Below, piece by piece: positions 4,660-16,209 of a DNA stretch of 20,909 bases (position 1 is the stretch's first letter; each line of letters begins with the position of its first letter). A program made the translations under genes and the position numbers. The notes beneath the pieces are model-generated. The model was not told the origin of the DNA and ran no database searches. It saw only the letters and a program-made list of their open reading frames with translations. The stretch spans positions 1 through 20,909 of the IMG/VR virus record IMGVR_UViG_3300037485_000558. The stretch is one strand, 5' to 3'. This stretch comes from a virus.

Positions 4660-4689
4660 CAAATATACTACTTATTTTGATTCTGCAAA
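4660..4689 (-). promoter_or_regulatory. Bacteroidota-type promoter, consensus -7 box
   Basis: On the minus strand, TTTG (4689-4686), an 18-bp spacer, then TATATTTG (4667-4660), an exact match to TANNTTTG. This is the best promoter match I found in the window. It precedes the gene starting at 4619 and follows the end of the gene at 4724. The -33 side lies inside the 19-bp core shared with 3279-3297. Confidence 0.68.
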
Positions 4690-4723: not shown

Positions 4724-4927
4724 CTATGCGATAATTCTCGACTGAGTAGTATTTGAAACGCCATCTAGTAGCGAGTTCCACAACTTTTCCAAGTTTGATT
4801 TTTCTTTGATATTCTGCTCTAGTATCTCCCGTGCCGTCTGTTTGGGCATTTCTTTATTAAGGTAGAATCTAATCTTAACAAGTAGCAACTCATCGCATTC
4901 TCTATCCGTTATCGGCATCTTATTCAT
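4724..4927 (-). CDS. Unknown 67-aa protein coupled to PAS-HisKA gene
   Basis: The start forms an ATGA overlap with the stop of the PAS-HisKA gene (4927-4924), so the two are probably made together. It is mostly helical: DRECDELLLVKIRFYLNKEM and TAREILEQNIKEKSNLEKLW. No DNA-binding or enzymatic motif is clear. A partner or antagonist of the PAS-HisKA protein is the simplest reading of the coupling, but this is inference. It ends the transcription unit; no GC-rich hairpin terminator follows. Confidence 0.66.
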   Translation of the reverse strand: MNKMPITDRECDELLLVKIRFYLNKEMPKQTAREILEQNIKEKSNLEKLWNSLLDGVSNTTQSRIIA

Positions 4928-5475
4928 AACTCACGAGCAAGTTTCTTGACTAACGAAAGTAATGCAATTTTTTCTTTTGCGTTGCATTCGGCTATCATCT
5001 TTAAGATATCATATTCGGGATGATCGTCAATAGCCAATTTAATCAAGCCTTCAGCCGTTACTACGTTATTGATAACATCGTGATTTATTGAGAATAGACA
5101 ATGCTCCAGCAGCTTGTCGGAGTTGTAATTCTGAATCGCTGCCTTAGAACTGAAGTCGGGTACTTGCGTTCCGAGAAAGTTGATTGACCCAAGTATCACG
5201 TAGATGTTCCATAGGGTGTAATGATTCACTCCCGTCTTTTGTCTGATAAGTGTAAAGAGCCTAACTGGTTTTGGGCTTGATTCATTCGCCTTGTTCACTT
5301 GCTCAAGGTAACGATCTAAATCATCATTGTCAGCTATGATATCGCTAATCTTGGATGGCTTGATGTGGCTGGTGTATTCTTTGAATAACTCATTAGACTT
5401 GACAATTTGCCCGTCCAAGTCTGTGATGCAATGCATAAAGTCTAACGCCTCACTAAGAATATAACTTGCGGACAT
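4924..5475 (-). CDS. PAS plus histidine-kinase-dimerisation-like protein, no ATPase
   Basis: A 183-residue protein from ATG 5475. Residues about 8-105 follow the PAS pattern (ALDFMHCITDLDGQIVKSNE with the D-x-x-G-x-I-x-x-x-N core, ending in strand WNIYVILGSINFLGTQV). Residues about 122-183 resemble a two-helix HisKA domain of Bacteroidota sensor kinases: INHDVINNVVTAEGLIKLA with H132-D133 at the phospho-acceptor place, and second helix ILKMIAECNAKEKIALLSLV. The usual R and P of the H-box are replaced (I135, N137). There is no HATPase domain and no membrane segment. Family resemblance is by eye. An in-frame ATG at 5517 would add 14 unlikely residues. It could act as a decoy or phosphotransfer protein. 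Confidence 0.6.
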   Translation of the reverse strand: MSASYILSEALDFMHCITDLDGQIVKSNELFKEYTSHIKPSKISDIIADNDDLDRYLEQVNKANESSPKPVRLFTLIRQKTGVNHYTLWNIYVILGSINFLGTQVPDFSSKAAIQNYNSDKLLEHCLFSINHDVINNVVTAEGLIKLAIDDHPEYDILKMIAECNAKEKIALLSLVKKLAREL

Positions 5476-5539: not shown

Positions 5540-6001
5540 TTACCTATTGAAATAAGTCCGCTCAATGTACTTCCACGTAAGTCGCAATGCTACGAATGCA
5601 ACCAATAGCCAAAAGGCTACTATCTGGAATGACTGGAAGCGAGTAAGTATATTCTCGTATCGTATCTCAGTTGAATGGGTGGCTTTTCTTTCCTTCGTAT
5701 CGTACACCGTAATGTGAACGGTATCTTGCACAGTTCCTGACCGAACGGTCAAGACACCATCGTTCACGAAGATTTGTGGAGTAGTAGAGCGATTGCCGTG
5801 ATATTCTGCAATGGTTCGACCTATCGCAACCTTGCCATCGATAACATCCAACTGGACCGCTTTAAAAGCTGAATCACTTGGAAAGATTATAGCAGTATCA
5901 CGGGGCAAGATTGAAACGGTTAACGAATCGGTGTAAGTCGTTTTCGGCTTGTGTGCCTTACAACTAGCAAGAACGATTAATAGTAGGAGGATTCCACGCA
6001 T
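5540..6001 (-). CDS. u-spanin-like lysis protein (lipobox plus C-terminal TM)
   Basis: A 153-residue protein with an N-terminal lipoprotein signal ending in lipobox LASC (Cys14), a beta-rich periplasmic-type domain (about 20-120), one transmembrane helix near residues 125-142 (FQIVAFWLLVAFVALRLTW), and a short basic tail. An outer-membrane lipid anchor plus an inner-membrane C-terminal anchor in a single chain is the architecture of unimolecular spanins (T1 gp11 type), which fuse the two membranes in the last lysis step. Its place after the holin candidate, and downstream of the endolysin, supports this. The 38-bp overlap with the preceding gene is in a different frame. Homology to known u-spanins is not shown. 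Confidence 0.65.
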   Translation of the reverse strand: MRGILLLLIVLASCKAHKPKTTYTDSLTVSILPRDTAIIFPSDSAFKAVQLDVIDGKVAIGRTIAEYHGNRSTTPQIFVNDGVLTVRSGTVQDTVHITVYDTKERKATHSTEIRYENILTRFQSFQIVAFWLLVAFVALRLTWKYIERTYFNR

Positions 6002-6464
6002 TACGAAGGTCTTTAATTAGGTTTCCCCAAGCATTAGTTTTTGAGCATCGTACAATGTAAGCCAACGCTATTAAGAATATCGCAACGCCAGCAGCACAAT
6101 CAAACTCACTATTGAACGAAGTGTCAACAGGGTGAATATGGATAGGGTAGTAGGGATCAAATGACTGAACCGTTCCATGTAAGTAATCGCTTGGCTGTAT
6201 CGTATCGCTCGCTCTGAAGGGCTGCTTCATTAGTATGGGCATCTCGTATTCAAAGGTAGTCAGTTCGTGGCTAAGTGCAACCGTGTCACCATTTATTCCG
6301 ATGTACCAATATAACAATCCACTACCGTCAGGGTCAATGGTGGGCTTTAGCGCAACCAAATCATGCGCCTGTACTTCGATGAAGTGCTGACGGATAAACG
6401 TATCCTGCCCTGCCGCTTTCCATGCTCCTTCATTTATCAATAGCGTGTCTTTAGGCTGGTTCAT
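5964..6464 (-). CDS. Single-TM phage membrane protein in lysis cassette
   Basis: A 166-residue protein. A polar N-terminal region of about 125 residues, beta-like and rich in acidic residues and Pro/His (YYPIHIHPVDT), is followed by one transmembrane helix (AGVAIFLIALAYIVRC, about 126-142) and a short amphipathic tail. No signal peptide is visible, so topology is uncertain. It overlaps the holin candidate by 14 bp and the u-spanin candidate by 38 bp. Location suggests an antiholin, lysis regulator or membrane partner. I cannot choose among these. Confidence 0.65.
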   Translation of the reverse strand: MNQPKDTLLINEGAWKAAGQDTFIRQHFIEVQAHDLVALKPTIDPDGSGLLYWYIGINGDTVALSHELTTFEYEMPILMKQPFRASDTIQPSDYLHGTVQSFDPYYPIHIHPVDTSFNSEFDCAAGVAIFLIALAYIVRCSKTNAWGNLIKDLRNAWNPPTINRSC

Positions 6465-6705
6465 TTTCGCCTCCTCCCTTCTTGTAGTTTCCTATGTACT
6501 TGAACAGTCCTATAAAGTCGAATGTGTTGTTGATGAATCCACCGGCTACAAGTAGAATGATTCCGAATACTGCTTTCTCTTGTGTAATCTTATCGAGATA
6601 CCATAGCACCAACGTGCCGAGTATCGCAAGCGAACCGAATGTTTCTTTCCAGTTCTTGCCAATGGCAATAAGTACACGCAGCCATCTAGGGTAGTCAGGA
6701 TTCAT
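6451..6705 (-). CDS. Holin candidate, two TM helices
   Basis: An 84-residue protein with hydrophobic helices at about 23-38 (FGSLAILGTLVLWYL) and 45-68 (AVFGIILLVAGGFINNTFDF), a short turn between them, and a charged, Gly-rich C-terminus (NYKKGGGENEPA). Small size, two helices and a hydrophilic tail fit class II holins, which hold the timing of lysis and let a signal-less endolysin cross the inner membrane. The endolysin encoded at 8740-9165 lacks any signal or SAR segment and so needs such a protein. Holins share little sequence, so this is a topology and context call. One 27-bp repeat copy lies 10 bp upstream. Confidence 0.62.
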   Translation of the reverse strand: MNPDYPRWLRVLIAIGKNWKETFGSLAILGTLVLWYLDKITQEKAVFGIILLVAGGFINNTFDFIGLFKYIGNYKKGGGENEPA

Positions 6706-6714
6706 TAAACACTT

Positions 6715-6741
6715 TTACGGCGGCTAAGGTAGGAGGTTACG
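6715..6741. repeat. Direct repeat, left copy, flanking the methyltransferase
   Basis: A 27-bp element matching 7783-7809 with 4 mismatches; the inner 16 bp (6726-6741) are identical to 7794-7809. The left copy overlaps the last codons of the methyltransferase gene and sits just upstream of the holin start. The right copy sits just upstream of the methyltransferase start. Both therefore occupy leader positions. Confidence 0.85.
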
Positions 6742-7780
6742 TTGGGATAAAAGAGAAAATATGCTCTATGATTGGCAAAGTCCAACCATCACCTAGTAAT
6801 GAAGCTGCTTTATTTCGTGAAAGTATATCGCAGTAATTGTCAGGAAAACCCTGTAACCTGCAAAGTTCAATTTTGTTTAACAATCTAACACCATCTTCTT
6901 TTAATGCAAATAATGGCTCATTTCCTTGTAGTAAGCATGGAGATTTACCTTTAGTAACTCTACCCCTACGTGTTTTTGAAGTGGGGAATGAAAGGTTTAA
7001 ACAATCATTTTTTGTAATAACATCATAACCCTTTAAGGTATTTGCTTTTACTCTTAACTCATTATTTTCAATATATACTATTGGACACATCCCCATAGAA
7101 TCCCTTGATTTTAAATATTTTTGAGAATCATTTGATTGCTCATCTTTATATGAATTTTTATATCCATAACCCTCTAAAATTGCAGTACTTTTATCCCTAT
7201 CAGTATATCCGTCAGTCAAAATATCTTTAAACATTATCTTTCTATCTTTTGGCTGTGGTATATCAGTAACTAAATCGCCAAACATTCCCTCTTGTCGAGT
7301 TTTAATGTTAGTCCAATAGTACCTATCTCGCAATTGGGCGGTAACTAAACTACTATTTATACGCACTGGGTAAACTCCCATTGCTCTACTCATTATGCCA
7401 ATATCAAGTAGTGAAGCCGAACCTACGTTTTCTTGAAAGAAATAAACATTAGGATTGAGGCTTTTAACGTGCTGAAGTATCTCAATAAATACCCAAAACA
7501 AACTAGATTTTTTGCCATTTATTCCTTTGCGCTTTCCTGCAATAGATAAATCTTGACAAGGCGAACCGCTCAAAATGAAATTAATGCTTTTCCAATCAAT
7601 ATCCCAATCTTTCCATTTGGTAACATCACCTAATTGAATTGTGTCAGGAAAGTGGTATTGAGTTAATTCAATCGCATAAGGCTTTAACTCACTTGAATAG
7701 TATTTATCAACTTTAATACCGATATTTTCTAAGGCTTGTCTGCCCGTGTTCATCCCGTTGAATAGAGATAGTACATTCAT
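6737..7780 (-). CDS. DNA cytosine-5 methyltransferase, DNMT3-like
   Basis: A 347-residue protein with all the key C5-methyltransferase motifs: I (LSLFNGMNTG, SAM binding), IV with catalytic Cys75 (SGSPCQDLSIAGKRKG), VI (QENVG, E117), VIII (QLRDRYYWTNI), IX (LCRLQGFPDNYC) and X (ASLLGDGWTLPII). The F-x-G-x-x-TG form of motif I and the short length resemble the DNMT3-like group found in phages. It would methylate cytosines in a specific site, probably to protect phage DNA from host restriction. No cognate restriction gene is present. The gene is clearly more AT-rich than its neighbours and is bracketed by direct repeats, both signs of recent gain. Target specificity cannot be read from sequence. 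Confidence 0.92.
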   Translation of the reverse strand: MNVLSLFNGMNTGRQALENIGIKVDKYYSSELKPYAIELTQYHFPDTIQLGDVTKWKDWDIDWKSINFILSGSPCQDLSIAGKRKGINGKKSSLFWVFIEILQHVKSLNPNVYFFQENVGSASLLDIGIMSRAMGVYPVRINSSLVTAQLRDRYYWTNIKTRQEGMFGDLVTDIPQPKDRKIMFKDILTDGYTDRDKSTAILEGYGYKNSYKDEQSNDSQKYLKSRDSMGMCPIVYIENNELRVKANTLKGYDVITKNDCLNLSFPTSKTRRGRVTKGKSPCLLQGNEPLFALKEDGVRLLNKIELCRLQGFPDNYCDILSRNKAASLLGDGWTLPIIEHIFSFIPT

Positions 7781-8739: not shown

Positions 8740-9165
8740 TTACTTCATAAACAGATTGTATTCTGCTTTTCTTCTTCGTACTAATCCTTTCAAAGTCATA
8801 CCATCGGCTTGAACGTAGCGAGTAGTCCACCAATCCTTAACGTCCTTACCTTCATTAATCAGTTTGAACAAAGTATCACTACCGCCTGTATTGAACGTGT
8901 GAGAAACGAGCGCATCAAATTGGTTTTGATTGAGTAGGACTTTGACCTTCTTCTTAACGATAGCCTCAAAACTAACAAGTATGTTCTTCAACAATTCATC
9001 CGCTTGTTCTTGGTTAACAGTATCGCCCATCTTCACCTTAGTTCCGTTGGCATAGAAGGTATTTCCATAGCCAATAGTAGCTTTCTTAGCAGGACATAGG
9101 TAAGCTGATAGGCTGCATCCTTCAAACTCTTTAATCAACGCAACCCCGATAGGTGAGGTGGTCAT
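8740..9165 (-). CDS. Endolysin, GH24 (T4/P22-type) lysozyme
   Basis: A 141-residue glycoside hydrolase family 24 muramidase. The catalytic triad is complete with the standard spacing: E15 in EFEG, C24 (E-x8-C, the P1/P22-like variant of Asp), T30 (C-x5-T) followed by IGYGNT. Later family features include NQNQFDALVSHTFNTGG and GLVRRRKAEYNLF at the C-terminus. It cuts the MurNAc-GlcNAc bonds of peptidoglycan for lysis. No signal peptide or SAR segment is present, so export depends on a holin. Its start overlaps the previous stop as TAATG (9167-9163). Confidence 0.93.
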   Translation of the reverse strand: MTTSPIGVALIKEFEGCSLSAYLCPAKKATIGYGNTFYANGTKVKMGDTVNQEQADELLKNILVSFEAIVKKKVKVLLNQNQFDALVSHTFNTGGSDTLFKLINEGKDVKDWWTTRYVQADGMTLKGLVRRRKAEYNLFMK

Positions 9166-9677
9166 TATAAGATTGAATAGATGCGTTGAACTGTAAACTC
9201 TGCTGTGATTGCAGTTCCGTTCATGGTTACTGCAACAACTCCATACTTCTGACTAGCAACAGCACCAACATTCACGGTGTCAAATTCTGAAATGGGACTT
9301 ACTGCTGACCAGAATGGAATTATATCACGAGTTGATGCAAAGTTAGTTGCAGGTAAAATGGCACAAGAAAGATTAAATTCTTCATAAGATTGCCCCGTGT
9401 CCATTTCGACTGAAAAGCGGCAAATGTCAGTAACAATATTACCTACCTGAGTGTATCGGCTTGTGCCAACTACTGTAATCGTAGCCGCACCTGATTGGTT
9501 TGTTATGCTTGGTGTCCATGTGCCGTTAGTTGGAATGCCCAATAAATCAACATCAATATTCTTTGTTGTTCCCGTTGGTGCTTCTGACGTATCAGAAACG
9601 TCAACGATTACTAACTTATCACCGCTTACGGGTGCGGTTAATAATTCGGGTAGTGCGGTAATCTTTACTCCTGCCAT
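9165..9677 (-). CDS. Small fibre-associated virion protein
   Basis: A 170-residue protein. The N-terminus MAGVKITALPELLTAPVSGD, with LVIVDVSDT soon after, is the short adaptor pattern seen at the start of many phage tail-fibre proteins (ITALPx-x-x-D-x-x-x-V). The rest is a beta-rich body (ATITVVGTSRYTQVGNIVTD; TAEFTVQRIYSIL) similar to the small tip or receptor-binding domains common in Bacteroidota phages. It lies between the large fibre gene cluster and the endolysin. It is probably a fibre tip or accessory spike; the binding target is unknown. Confidence 0.65.
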   Translation of the reverse strand: MAGVKITALPELLTAPVSGDKLVIVDVSDTSEAPTGTTKNIDVDLLGIPTNGTWTPSITNQSGAATITVVGTSRYTQVGNIVTDICRFSVEMDTGQSYEEFNLSCAILPATNFASTRDIIPFWSAVSPISEFDTVNVGAVASQKYGVVAVTMNGTAITAEFTVQRIYSIL

Positions 9678-9679
9678 GA

Positions 9680-9889
9680 TTAGTTTGTTTTTAATGTGTT
9701 TAGTTTATCGGCGAACAGTTCAACCGATTCAAATGATTCGTTGTTAATTGTCGTATCGCTAGGCGTGATTCCTAAGACCATTCCCCCTACTGTGATGTGG
9801 ACGAAGTTATCATCTACAATCTCAACGGCATCGAAATAGCCTTCAAATCCATTAACCTTTAAGATGTTATTTTCAAATTCTATATTCAT
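9680..9889 (-). CDS. Small 69-aa fibre-linked protein
   Basis: The start overlaps the large fibre stop as TAATG (9891-9887), so it is translationally coupled to the fibre. The protein is acidic and beta-like (FEGYFDAVEIVDDNFVHITV) and ends in a helix (ESVELFADKLNTLK). It has no recognisable family. A fibre chaperone or a small fibre-associated structural protein would fit the context. No Cys. Confidence 0.65.
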   Translation of the reverse strand: MNIEFENNILKVNGFEGYFDAVEIVDDNFVHITVGGMVLGITPSDTTINNESFESVELFADKLNTLKTN

Positions 9890-12699
9890 TATGTTTTGAT
9901 TATTCGATAGTAAGAAATTGCCGTTGAGTCTGTACCTCCTGTATTCTGAACGCAGAAAACGAAATACTTATCTACTGCCCAATTTATGTTATAGTTGGTC
10001 AGTACATTAACTCCAATGTCGGTCAACAGAACAGTCGTTGCCGTTGGCAATTCTGTTACAGTTGATGACTTGATGTTAAGCCTTCTCTCCATCCTTGTGC
10101 CTGATTGCACATTCGCCGCTAAGTAGGTTGCAATCAGTTGAGGCGAACCAGTTAAGTCAGCCGTTCCGTTCACGTATACACGATACACCACAGTACCACC
10201 CGTACCTGTCTTGTTCACAGTTCCCCAATCAAGTTGAATAATATCATTTCCGAAAGTTCCAGCAGGAATCAACTGAGTTTTAGAAACCGTGTTCGTGTTA
10301 GTCGATGAAGCAGTTCCCGTAGTGGTATCTTTGAATACCGTCAAGGCTGGAATAGTCCATGAGCGGTCAGCCGATAAGTCCTGCGCCGTTCCGTTGATTG
10401 TAATTGTTCGTGCATTGGTAACGGGAGTAAATCCTAGTGCATTTTGCTTACCATCAAACGCACTCCAATCAGCTGAACTTAACGCCCCTCTGTTGGCAGC
10501 ACTTGCTGTTGGTAGGTTGAAGGTGTGCGTATCAGCAACGGATGAGATAGCGAAGTCTGTTCCACTTGTTCCTACTGCAAGGAGTTGAGTCTGCGCAGTC
10601 AGTCCATTAAGCGAAGTTAAGCCAGTGGAGAAAGTTGTAATTATCTGACTCAAGTGATTATCCTCAGTGTGCATTGTAATTGTGCGCCCACTATGAATGA
10701 CATAAAAGCGCACAGCAAGCCTATCTGTTGCAACAAGTGTTGTCTGTGGTACTGCTAATGCAGTCAGATATAAATCAATTGCAGTGCCTCCTGTAATGTT
10801 TTCGGGATTAGTGGAGTTTGATGCAATCAATGTCAATGTTGCCCCATCCCACTTGTAAAGTTCAATGTAGAATCTTGGACTGCCTCCGCTGCTAGATGCG
10901 CTGAAGTAAGTTTCAAAAGTCCAATTACCTGCCGGTATTGATAATTGATTTGGGTCATTGGCATCGGTGATGAATGACTGAATATATCCATCTGCATTGA
11001 TTGTGAAATCCGTACCTGATCCAATGACTGGCACTTTATTAATCTCACGCATTGCCACGCCGCCAAATGTACCTTGACTCACCGAGCCGTTGAGGTAATA
11101 GCTAACTGATGCTCCGCCTCCGCTTGATGTCGGAAAGTTTGCAAGCTGCCCATCACCTCTGATGTATTGAGAAGCGACACCAGCAGCTGTCACAGCCAAT
11201 GTTCCACTCGTTGTCACTGGGTTACCACTAACGGAGAATGCGGCAGGCATTGATAGGTCGACACTTGTGACAGTACCTGTTGGCAAAGTCGGGAATGGCG
11301 TTGGTGTTCCAGTGCCATCGAGATAGTCGGAATTAGTTCCCGTTGGCACATCGAACTTGCCATCGAAGGTGTTCCAATCGGCAGAGGTAAGGTATCCATC
11401 ATCGACAGAGCTTGCAGGCTGTATCGATATGTCGGGAGTTGCTCCTCCACTTGATGACAATGGGCTTGTTGCGGTCACCGAAGTAACTCCTCCAACTGAA
11501 ACAACCGCCCAAACTGCTGCGCCGATTGTAGCATCACTGCATTCATACACAGTACCATCATCTAGACTCCATCGAGAACCATTTACAAAGCCCTTAGTTG
11601 AATCATCTGTCGGTTGAGGTACGAAGGTAAAATTGTGAGTAACATCACGAATTGTGAAGCCGTCTTGCTCCATGTAGTACAATCGCCCTGCTTCCCATTT
11701 TAACTCGTAGCTAATTGAGCAAATCTGCGCCGTTCCTTTTGCTCCTCCGTTGCCTGCATCGGTTGTTCCCTTGCGAATAAAAGCACCATTGTCAAATGAT
11801 AGCCCTGCATTTGCAATGAAGCCAATGTCGTTAGTTGTGCTATTTCCTAAGTCGGTAACCTCTTGCAATGTTCCTACTCCACCACTTCCTCCTCCCGGTA
11901 TATTTACCTCAACTACTCCTGCCGATGTCAGCGTTGCTGTTGCCCCTGCACCCGTAAAGTTCAAGGTGGTAGTGTTGGCACTTACCGTTGTGCCTTCTTC
12001 CTTCGTTATTAGCGGAGTGCCACCACCGCCACCGATTGCAACCAACGGGTCTGCTACCGTTCCGTTTCCTGTGATTGTAACACCATCAACAGCTACTTCA
12101 GTAAGGCACGGTGTGCATGGTTCGTAGTTAGGAGGAAGCGGTATCTCACCCGTTTGGCAAGTATCGTAGCACCCATCATCAGCACTACTCACTATCTGAA
12201 CATCGATGTCAATACTCACACAAGCCCACTCGTAGTTCTGAGTCAATGACTTAATTTCGTTGGCATAGCCGTTAGGTATCACCTCGTAAGACGTTACCCC
12301 GATGGAAGCCTTGAAGCCGAAGTCCATCCCTGATGTCAGCTTGTACACCCGTGAGGCAATCCAATCTTGAGCATCTTCTGAGTCGCATGGTAAGTGTGAC
12401 TTGCGGACAATAGCGTAAGCCGTCAGAGGGAAGGTAGTCTGATACATCTTCTTGCATCCTGACACTTTCAAAGAGTCAATGATGTTGATGTTAACCTTAC
12501 CCCTTTTTGCCCAAAAGATTGTTCCTTGCTTGGCATCGAAGTTCGTCACTACCTCACCCTGCCCATCACCGATGTAGTGAATCCATGCCTTGTCGTTTCC
12601 GTTGGCGTTAAGTTCACATAGTCCGAACTGCTTATCGAAGATATTAGCAACACCAATGCGTTGATTTAAACGTCTTATTATCTCAGATAGTAGATTCAT
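9889..12699 (-). CDS. Large tail fibre / receptor-binding protein
   Basis: A 936-residue protein. Residues 1 to about 185 form a distinct, Cys-containing N-terminal domain that probably attaches to the virion, ending in a CYDTC/CTPC cluster. Gly-rich linkers (GGGGGTP near 228, GGGSGG near 272) lead into long Thr/Ser/Gly/Asn-rich beta repeats typical of trimeric fibres. The motif SADWNTFDGK near 440 recurs as SADWSAFDGK near 745, preceded each time by a Gly-x-Leu. Phrases such as GTVTSVDLSMPAAF and SLNGLTAQTQLL are fibre-like. It probably mediates host recognition. The codon-level repeats make this gene a likely recombination hotspot. Starts with an ATGA overlap (12699-12696). Confidence 0.82.
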   Translation of the reverse strand: MNLLSEIIRRLNQRIGVANIFDKQFGLCELNANGNDKAWIHYIGDGQGEVVTNFDAKQGTIFWAKRGKVNINIIDSLKVSGCKKMYQTTFPLTAYAIVRKSHLPCDSEDAQDWIASRVYKLTSGMDFGFKASIGVTSYEVIPNGYANEIKSLTQNYEWACVSIDIDVQIVSSADDGCYDTCQTGEIPLPPNYEPCTPCLTEVAVDGVTITGNGTVADPLVAIGGGGGTPLITKEEGTTVSANTTTLNFTGAGATATLTSAGVVEVNIPGGGSGGVGTLQEVTDLGNSTTNDIGFIANAGLSFDNGAFIRKGTTDAGNGGAKGTAQICSISYELKWEAGRLYYMEQDGFTIRDVTHNFTFVPQPTDDSTKGFVNGSRWSLDDGTVYECSDATIGAAVWAVVSVGGVTSVTATSPLSSSGGATPDISIQPASSVDDGYLTSADWNTFDGKFDVPTGTNSDYLDGTGTPTPFPTLPTGTVTSVDLSMPAAFSVSGNPVTTSGTLAVTAAGVASQYIRGDGQLANFPTSSGGGASVSYYLNGSVSQGTFGGVAMREINKVPVIGSGTDFTINADGYIQSFITDANDPNQLSIPAGNWTFETYFSASSSGGSPRFYIELYKWDGATLTLIASNSTNPENITGGTAIDLYLTALAVPQTTLVATDRLAVRFYVIHSGRTITMHTEDNHLSQIITTFSTGLTSLNGLTAQTQLLAVGTSGTDFAISSVADTHTFNLPTASAANRGALSSADWSAFDGKQNALGFTPVTNARTITINGTAQDLSADRSWTIPALTVFKDTTTGTASSTNTNTVSKTQLIPAGTFGNDIIQLDWGTVNKTGTGGTVVYRVYVNGTADLTGSPQLIATYLAANVQSGTRMERRLNIKSSTVTELPTATTVLLTDIGVNVLTNYNINWAVDKYFVFCVQNTGGTDSTAISYYRIIKT

Positions 12700-15545: not shown

Positions 15546-16124
15546 TTATTTTATTGCCATCCAATTATCTGAAACTGAATCTTGAAGTTCAGCAACATCG
15601 TTTGGTCTATAATCAGATTCGTTTTTATTTGACTTCTCAAGATTACAAGACTTGCATAATACTTGAAGATTATCGATGGAAAGTTCCAGTTCAATAAACT
15701 TTGACCTTGGCTTTATGTGGTCAATATGAAACTCTCCTTTTGTTTCACCACACTTCATGCAGCATCTGCCGTGTTTATACAGAACTTTTCTTCTTAACGA
15801 AATCCATGCCTTTGATTTATAGAAGTTTGTGTATGCTTTCTTTTCATGCTTACTAAGGTCAATATATTGCTTAGTAGGTTTGATGCTTTCAAATGTTAGA
15901 TTGTTGGCTCTGAATTGGTTTACTATCCATTCAACATAATCACCGTCGACTGAATTTGACGAAAGTCTTGCGTAGTCGTAGACAAGTTCTCTTTTGTTTT
16001 TATTTCGGGTCTTGATTTTATTTAGAATTAAAACTTGATGCAAACTATCAAAGCAATTATCAAGCACAGTAACACCATGCTGCTTCATTAATCTTGTATC
16101 GAATTTATATTTATTGAATTGCAT
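15546..16124 (-). CDS. HNH endonuclease (probable free-standing homing type)
   Basis: A 192-residue protein from ATG 16124. The C-terminal HNH domain is complete: C122-x2-C125 (CCMKCG), HIDHIKPRS (133-136 carrying the catalytic His), N152 and LCKSCN (C157, C160) closing the zinc site. The N-terminal 100 residues are basic and probably bind DNA. The frame opens further upstream at a GTG (16190), but that part overlaps the terminator at 16145-16170, so the downstream ATG is preferred. It splits the scaffold and capsid genes, normally adjacent, and is more AT-rich than both. That fits a mobile homing endonuclease; a packaging HNH usually sits near terminase. Confidence 0.85.
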   Translation of the reverse strand: MQFNKYKFDTRLMKQHGVTVLDNCFDSLHQVLILNKIKTRNKNKRELVYDYARLSSNSVDGDYVEWIVNQFRANNLTFESIKPTKQYIDLSKHEKKAYTNFYKSKAWISLRRKVLYKHGRCCMKCGETKGEFHIDHIKPRSKFIELELSIDNLQVLCKSCNLEKSNKNESDYRPNDVAELQDSVSDNWMAIK

Positions 16125-16144
16125 AAGACGATAAATTATAGGAT

Positions 16145-16170
16145 AAAAAAGGGTAACATTTCTGCTACCC
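16145..16170 (-). terminator. Intrinsic terminator after scaffold gene
   Basis: On the minus strand an 8-bp stem GGGTAGCA/TGTTACCC (one G-U pair) closes a GAAA tetraloop (16162-16159) and is followed by TTTTTT (16150-16145). It lies 40 bp after the scaffold stop and before the HNH start. TATATTTG at 16209-16202 just upstream matches the -7 consensus but lacks a clear -33 element. Confidence 0.87.
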
Positions 16171-16209
16171 TCTTCCGTCAACATAAACACACAAAGCGAT
16201 TCAAATATA

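Follow-up and report, generated by a model that had tools for sequence, protein, structure and literature searches.

A conserved phage family of PAS–DHp proteins without an ATPase domain: candidate phosphoacceptors acting on host two-component signalling

Spo0B and ChpT carry out phosphotransfer through a DHp-like four-helix bundle without kinase activity of their own; they keep a degenerate CA-like domain and have no PAS domain. On the phage side, direct action on host two-component signalling is barely documented. The phage protein PIT4 binds histidine-kinase domains of its host and reduces motility; the 2023 paper describing it states that no phage acting directly on these pathways had been reported earlier (PMC10714779). 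For the chemistry of the DHp itself, the HisKA kinase CrdS provides a residue-level reference: the Glu next to its His is needed for kinase but not for phosphatase activity, the E372D substitution abolishes kinase activity and leaves the protein phosphatase-competent, N375Q at the +4 Asn leaves no measurable phosphatase activity, and the Pro that follows +4 also matters for the phosphatase reaction (PMC3510030). The DHp of HK853 alone binds the response regulator and dephosphorylates its receiver (PMC5727384).

Here we analyse a gene in a 20,909-bp viral record from IMG/VR, the whole of which we refer to as the window. A preliminary description had read its product as a PAS domain followed by a HisKA-type DHp, with neither an ATPase domain nor a membrane anchor, and had placed it in a two-gene module with a small helical protein. 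The features discussed below are collected in Table 1.

Table 1. Coordinates of the PAS–DHp module, the lysis-region genes around it and a divergent relative (window positions unless another record is named).
Feature	Position	Strand	Basis
PAS–DHp gene (HisKA-type, 183 aa, without ATPase domain)	4924..5475	-	ORF, HisKA matches of relatives and structural model
His132 codon, phosphoacceptor position	5080..5082	-	Counted from the start codon (5475)
Helical partner protein, 67 aa, ATGA-overlapped, no known family	4724..4927	-	ORF and family alignment
153-aa protein, lipobox and C-terminal transmembrane segment (unimolecular-spanin-like)	5540..6001	-	Read from sequence
166-aa protein, C-terminal transmembrane segment	5964..6464	-	Sequence and comparison with relatives
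84-aa holin-like protein, two hydrophobic segments	6451..6705	-	Sequence
Endolysin (Phage_lysozyme)	8740..9165	-	Pfam and PHROGs
L062-type PAS–DHp relative, motif IHHELLSHHSK	L062 17645-18178, also L222		

On its own, the 183-aa protein gave no significant match in sequence searches of Pfam, PHROG or the PDB, and a direct scan returned no near relative, nor any among cultured phages or plasmids, so that direct homology could not check the PAS/HisKA call. Relatives were retrieved through two other genes of the window, that for the major-capsid-like protein and one of 230 aa nearby; phmmer linked the window protein to 52 distinct full-length relatives at the equivalent locus, with E values down to 4e-51, and a profile scan of IMG/VR enlarged the family set to 92 distinct members. 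The C-terminal half of these relatives is a textbook HisKA H-box, FRFMLSHELRQPLTSI, and the Pfam HisKA profile (PF00512) is matched by 22 of 23 aligned members (best 6e-11), the window copy being the sole failure; relative L018, for example, scores 39.8 bits with a cut-off of 26.9. The PAS half is weak at the level of sequence profiles, PAS_9 being matched in 2 of the 23.

AlphaFold2, given the window protein together with 48 homologues, predicts a PAS fold at approximately residues 11–108 followed by two long helices, 119–151 and 156–182, that form the DHp hairpin (mean pLDDT 82.6); given the window protein without homologues, it returned a useless fold (pLDDT 36.7). The top PDB matches found by Foldseek for this model are PAS/LOV-histidine kinases (4gcz and 8a52), its residues 11–108 superpose on PAS chains with Z of about 13 and an rmsd of about 2 over 90–100 residues, and among viral entries the top matches include proteins of giant viruses and uncultured phages that are annotated as histidine kinases. 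We regard the PAS–DHp identity of the window protein as secure through its relatives on sequence grounds, and the model shows a predicted PAS plus DHp fold for the subunit, so both halves of the original domain reading hold.

The chain stops at the DHp, with residue 183 as its last, at the point where the ATPase domain of a kinase would start, and inspection of the sequence shows no visible transmembrane segment; the absence of an ATPase domain and of a membrane anchor had both been described correctly. A complete kinase cut short by a stop is ruled out, as the relatives share the end point and the coupled gene. A split kinase within one phage, with the ATPase encoded elsewhere, is not supported either: HATPase_c was found in none of 34 near-full-length related records and HATPase_c_2 in none of 26, with positive control genomes in both searches. 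A cognate response regulator was likewise sought, and Response_reg was found in none of the 34 near-full-length records, again with positive controls. As the phage carries neither an ATPase nor a receiver, the likely partners are the kinases and regulators of the host.

By tblastn, 431 IMG/VR stretches encode PAS–DHp relatives, and the gene is present in each of the 26 long contigs checked from related phages (about 34 kb or more, fetched by similarity to the capsid-like or the 230-aa protein). It is a core gene of a large uncultured phage group and evolves under strong purifying selection, with a median dN/dS of 0.07 over 208 family pairs. Among 50,697 phage records we found no cultured relative that carries the family, and we found no description of this family in the open-access literature. 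The sole GTDB contig with the gene, JAKPPP010000416.1 (L198), comes from a Bacteroidota metagenome-assembled genome (MAG) and has the same phage gene neighbours around it, which makes it a binned phage fragment and not a bacterial gene. This MAG is the only direct hint at the host phylum, which is probably Bacteroidota. The nearest bacterial kinases in its family reach E values of only about 1e-10, have ordinary SHDLRSPL-type boxes and point to no specific host kinase target. At the far end of the family's diversity, the L062 type is a very divergent relative (26% identity to the L218 protein).

The residues around the acceptor are where the family and the window copy part. The preliminary description had placed His132 and Asp133 in the acceptor position; across the aligned homologues the His is invariant (92/92), whereas the residue after it is Glu in 91 of 92 members and Asp in the window copy only. 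At +4 from the His, 86 members have Gln and 5 have Ser, with Asn (Asn136) confined to the window copy; the family at large does not have the E/DxxT/N phosphatase motif. The two tests that the preliminary description had set for its reading, on the fold of the subunit and on the constancy of His132, thus came out in its favour. The P of the H-box is kept in 89 of the 92 and the R in 86, nearly all relatives keep the SHELRQPL box, and even the L062 type retains His-Glu despite its deep divergence. That the H-box has lost its R and P, as reported, thus holds for the window copy, which has also lost the S before the His, and does not extend to the family: since nearly all relatives keep both residues, the loss is a feature of the window allele, not of the system.

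We propose, giving it roughly even credence, that the family protein acts on host two-component systems as a soluble DHp phosphoacceptor with a PAS sensor and no ATPase of its own. It would form a four-helix bundle by homo- or heterodimerisation, the ATPase domain of a host kinase would phosphorylate, in trans, the His of the phage protein, whose DHp could then feed host response regulators or, more likely, divert or compete for them; the PAS domain may tune this action through a ligand or redox cue. Its routes into the host would be to dimerise with host kinases, to be phosphorylated by them or to compete. Read against the CrdS mutants, the HExxQ of the family predicts a protein that is acceptor-competent in trans and phosphatase-deficient, a prediction at the level of single residues that is testable with purified proteins, and this would favour a role as decoy or hijacker over one in erasing phosphate from response regulators.

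An eraser is nonetheless conceivable, as a DHp that alone removes phosphate from host response regulators has a precedent in the phosphatase-active DHp of HK853, and the HDxxN of the window copy fits the E/DxxT/N motif and recalls the kinase-dead, phosphatase-competent E372D form of CrdS. We consider it distinctly unlikely, because the critical +4 position is Gln or Ser in all other members, with the matching N375Q change in CrdS lacking measurable activity, and because the Pro after +4 that matters in CrdS is lost in the very copy that fits the motif. The idea, put forward at the outset, that the protein drains phosphate from a response regulator is therefore improbable as phosphatase action for the family, and possible for the window copy: its HDxxN might lean toward phosphatase and away from acceptor activity, although the lost Pro tempers this prediction.

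PAS domains and DHps are dimerisers, and the architecture would also suit a PAS-controlled dimerisation scaffold whose DHp hairpin serves only to dimerise or to bind kinases, as a dominant-negative partner of host kinases, with the His never phosphorylated. Binding of kinase domains by a phage protein has a precedent in PIT4, and the window copy lacks most of the H-box around its His. The H-box could also be kept for the stability of a dimerisation-only bundle, which would run counter to the acceptor reading. We hold such a scaffold to be somewhat unlikely, given that the family conserves the His without exception, the Glu with one exception and the SHELRQPL box as a whole, and that the His-Glu pair persists even in the L062 type.

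By sequence comparison, the window copy is the most divergent member of the family. It shares 45–49% identity with its counterparts in phages where the genes on either side mostly reach 83–95%; its pS is saturated (0.82–0.86, with pN of 0.34–0.36), whereas the flanking genes have pS of about 0.24–0.52 in the comparison with relative G061. In the tree it is sister to L218, L004 and L198 (support 0.99), its terminal branch measuring 1.05 substitutions per site. A divergent gene amid similar flanks, together with a long branch, fits replacement by an unsampled allele, and the window copy was probably swapped in from an unsampled source. Of the highly conserved positions, 25 of 32 are retained in its PAS domain but only 8 of 20 in its DHp (Fisher P 0.008), and these losses make its phosphoacceptor role less sure than that of the family.

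The long branch and the loss of conserved DHp residues would also be expected of a decaying remnant of a truncated histidine kinase that has no function. We judge this very improbable: the window ORF is intact, and a pN of 0.34–0.36 at saturated pS argues against decay, while the relatives share both the end point and the coupled partner, the low dN/dS speaks for constraint, and all long relatives carry the gene. For the family, then, sequence comparisons largely refute the remnant reading.

The stop and start of the 183-aa and 67-aa ORFs overlap as ATGA, and such overlaps are common among the relatives. The two-gene module that had been suggested from this overlap is borne out across the family: partner homologues occur in 135 of 143 PAS–DHp loci, or in 135 of 136 evaluable ones once seven of the eight partner-less loci, which lie at or near contig ends, are left out. 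The one true exception is the L062 type, whose PAS–DHp gene is ATGA-coupled to a gene for a signal-peptide protein near lysis-like genes. The partner family has the consensus LPxTDxECDERLxKVxxxYVxExxMPxxxAxxIL, in which, over 24 members, an L and the MP motif are invariant and the Y and an A nearly so. Searches of the PDB, Pfam and PHROG for relatives of the partner family gave chance-level matches only. We assume that the partner would bind or regulate the PAS–DHp protein. Sda, the DHp-binding antikinase of B. subtilis, was considered as a model, as both proteins are short and helical and share a superficial DELL...EM...I motif, but the likeness is not supported by profile comparison: hhalign gives a probability of 1% (P 0.055), and none of the 24 partner members has an Sda match in Pfam.

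The module comes last in the lysis cassette. Upstream of the PAS–DHp gene, 74 of 92 loci encode a protein with a membrane segment at its C terminus, and in most relatives the gene directly upstream resembles the 166-aa gene of the window; in the window clade only, the 153-aa spanin-like gene stands between the 166-aa gene and the PAS–DHp gene. No family match was obtained for the 84-aa holin-like protein. This location weakly suggests late expression, and might couple lysis timing to the state of the host. It could also point inwards, to a lysis sensor in which the PAS–DHp pair regulates holin or spanin, or the timing of lysis, through contacts with phage proteins, the more so as even the L062 type adjoins lysis-like genes. 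We find this improbable: the argument is one of position, the phages searched yielded no partner carrying a receiver or an ATPase domain, and the conserved His-Glu chemistry would be left unexplained. Returning to the acceptor reading, its fullest form, a counter-signalling module of a new class in which host kinases phosphorylate a PAS-gated, ATPase-less acceptor in trans and it reroutes their two-component signalling late in infection, alleles switch between acceptor-type (HExxQ) and phosphatase-type (HDxxN) chemistry from one related phage to another and a small partner is dedicated to it, strikes us as rather unlikely when taken as a whole.

Several other features of the window deserve mention. 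A C5 cytosine DNA methyltransferase gene (6737-7780) lies within the late/lysis region and is unmatched in the compared parts of four relatives (G001, G061, G062 and L198), and would be either a recent insertion in the window lineage or a loss in the others. An HNH endonuclease gene (15546-16190) adjoins the major-capsid-like gene, is essentially absent from G001, G061 and G062, and resembles, from this distribution, an inserted homing endonuclease gene of the free-standing type. A promoter pattern of Bacteroidota, TTTG-N-TAnnTTTG, has a single match, at 4660-4689 on the minus strand in the gap that separates the module from the operon after it, which is weak because 36% of shuffles contain at least one. 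The genes of the tail-fibre region (9165-9677 and 9889-12699) vary strongly in identity among relatives, the first of them showing 57% or 92% depending on the relative, as expected for host-range mosaics.

Taken together, one odd gene of the window has been extended to a conserved core phage family, in which hundreds of metagenomic phage sequences keep, under strong selection, the half of a kinase that would accept phosphate but not the half that drives it. This suggests that a phage gene plugs into the host's own signalling circuits. If the proteins are phosphorylated by host kinases, they would constitute a natural split kinase and a viral route to read or rewire host sensing.

Compared with PAS-containing HisKA kinases such as YF1 (4gcz), FixL-type kinases and those of Bacteroidota, the phage family has the PAS fold, the DHp hairpin and the SHELRQPL H-box in common, but ends at the DHp and lacks ATPase, receiver, membrane and other sensory domains. 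Unlike Spo0B and ChpT, it has a PAS domain and no domain beyond the DHp helices; the Spo0B analogy of the preliminary description captures a possible phosphotransfer role and is imperfect, as the CA-like C-terminal domain of Spo0B has no counterpart after the phage DHp. PIT4 of Pseudomonas phage LSL4 acts on host two-component kinases, which is shown there and proposed here; its paper presents it as an early unknown protein and does not call it a DHp (PMC10714779). The agr genes of phiCDHM1 are a partial two-component pathway on a phage, without a response regulator and relying on that of the host; their AgrC keeps HATPase_c and has no identified receptor domain, the reverse of the PAS–DHp family (PMC3901668). 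The HisKA kind itself is known, and what is new here is a phage-encoded candidate HisKA phosphoacceptor without an ATPase domain, accompanied by a dedicated partner.
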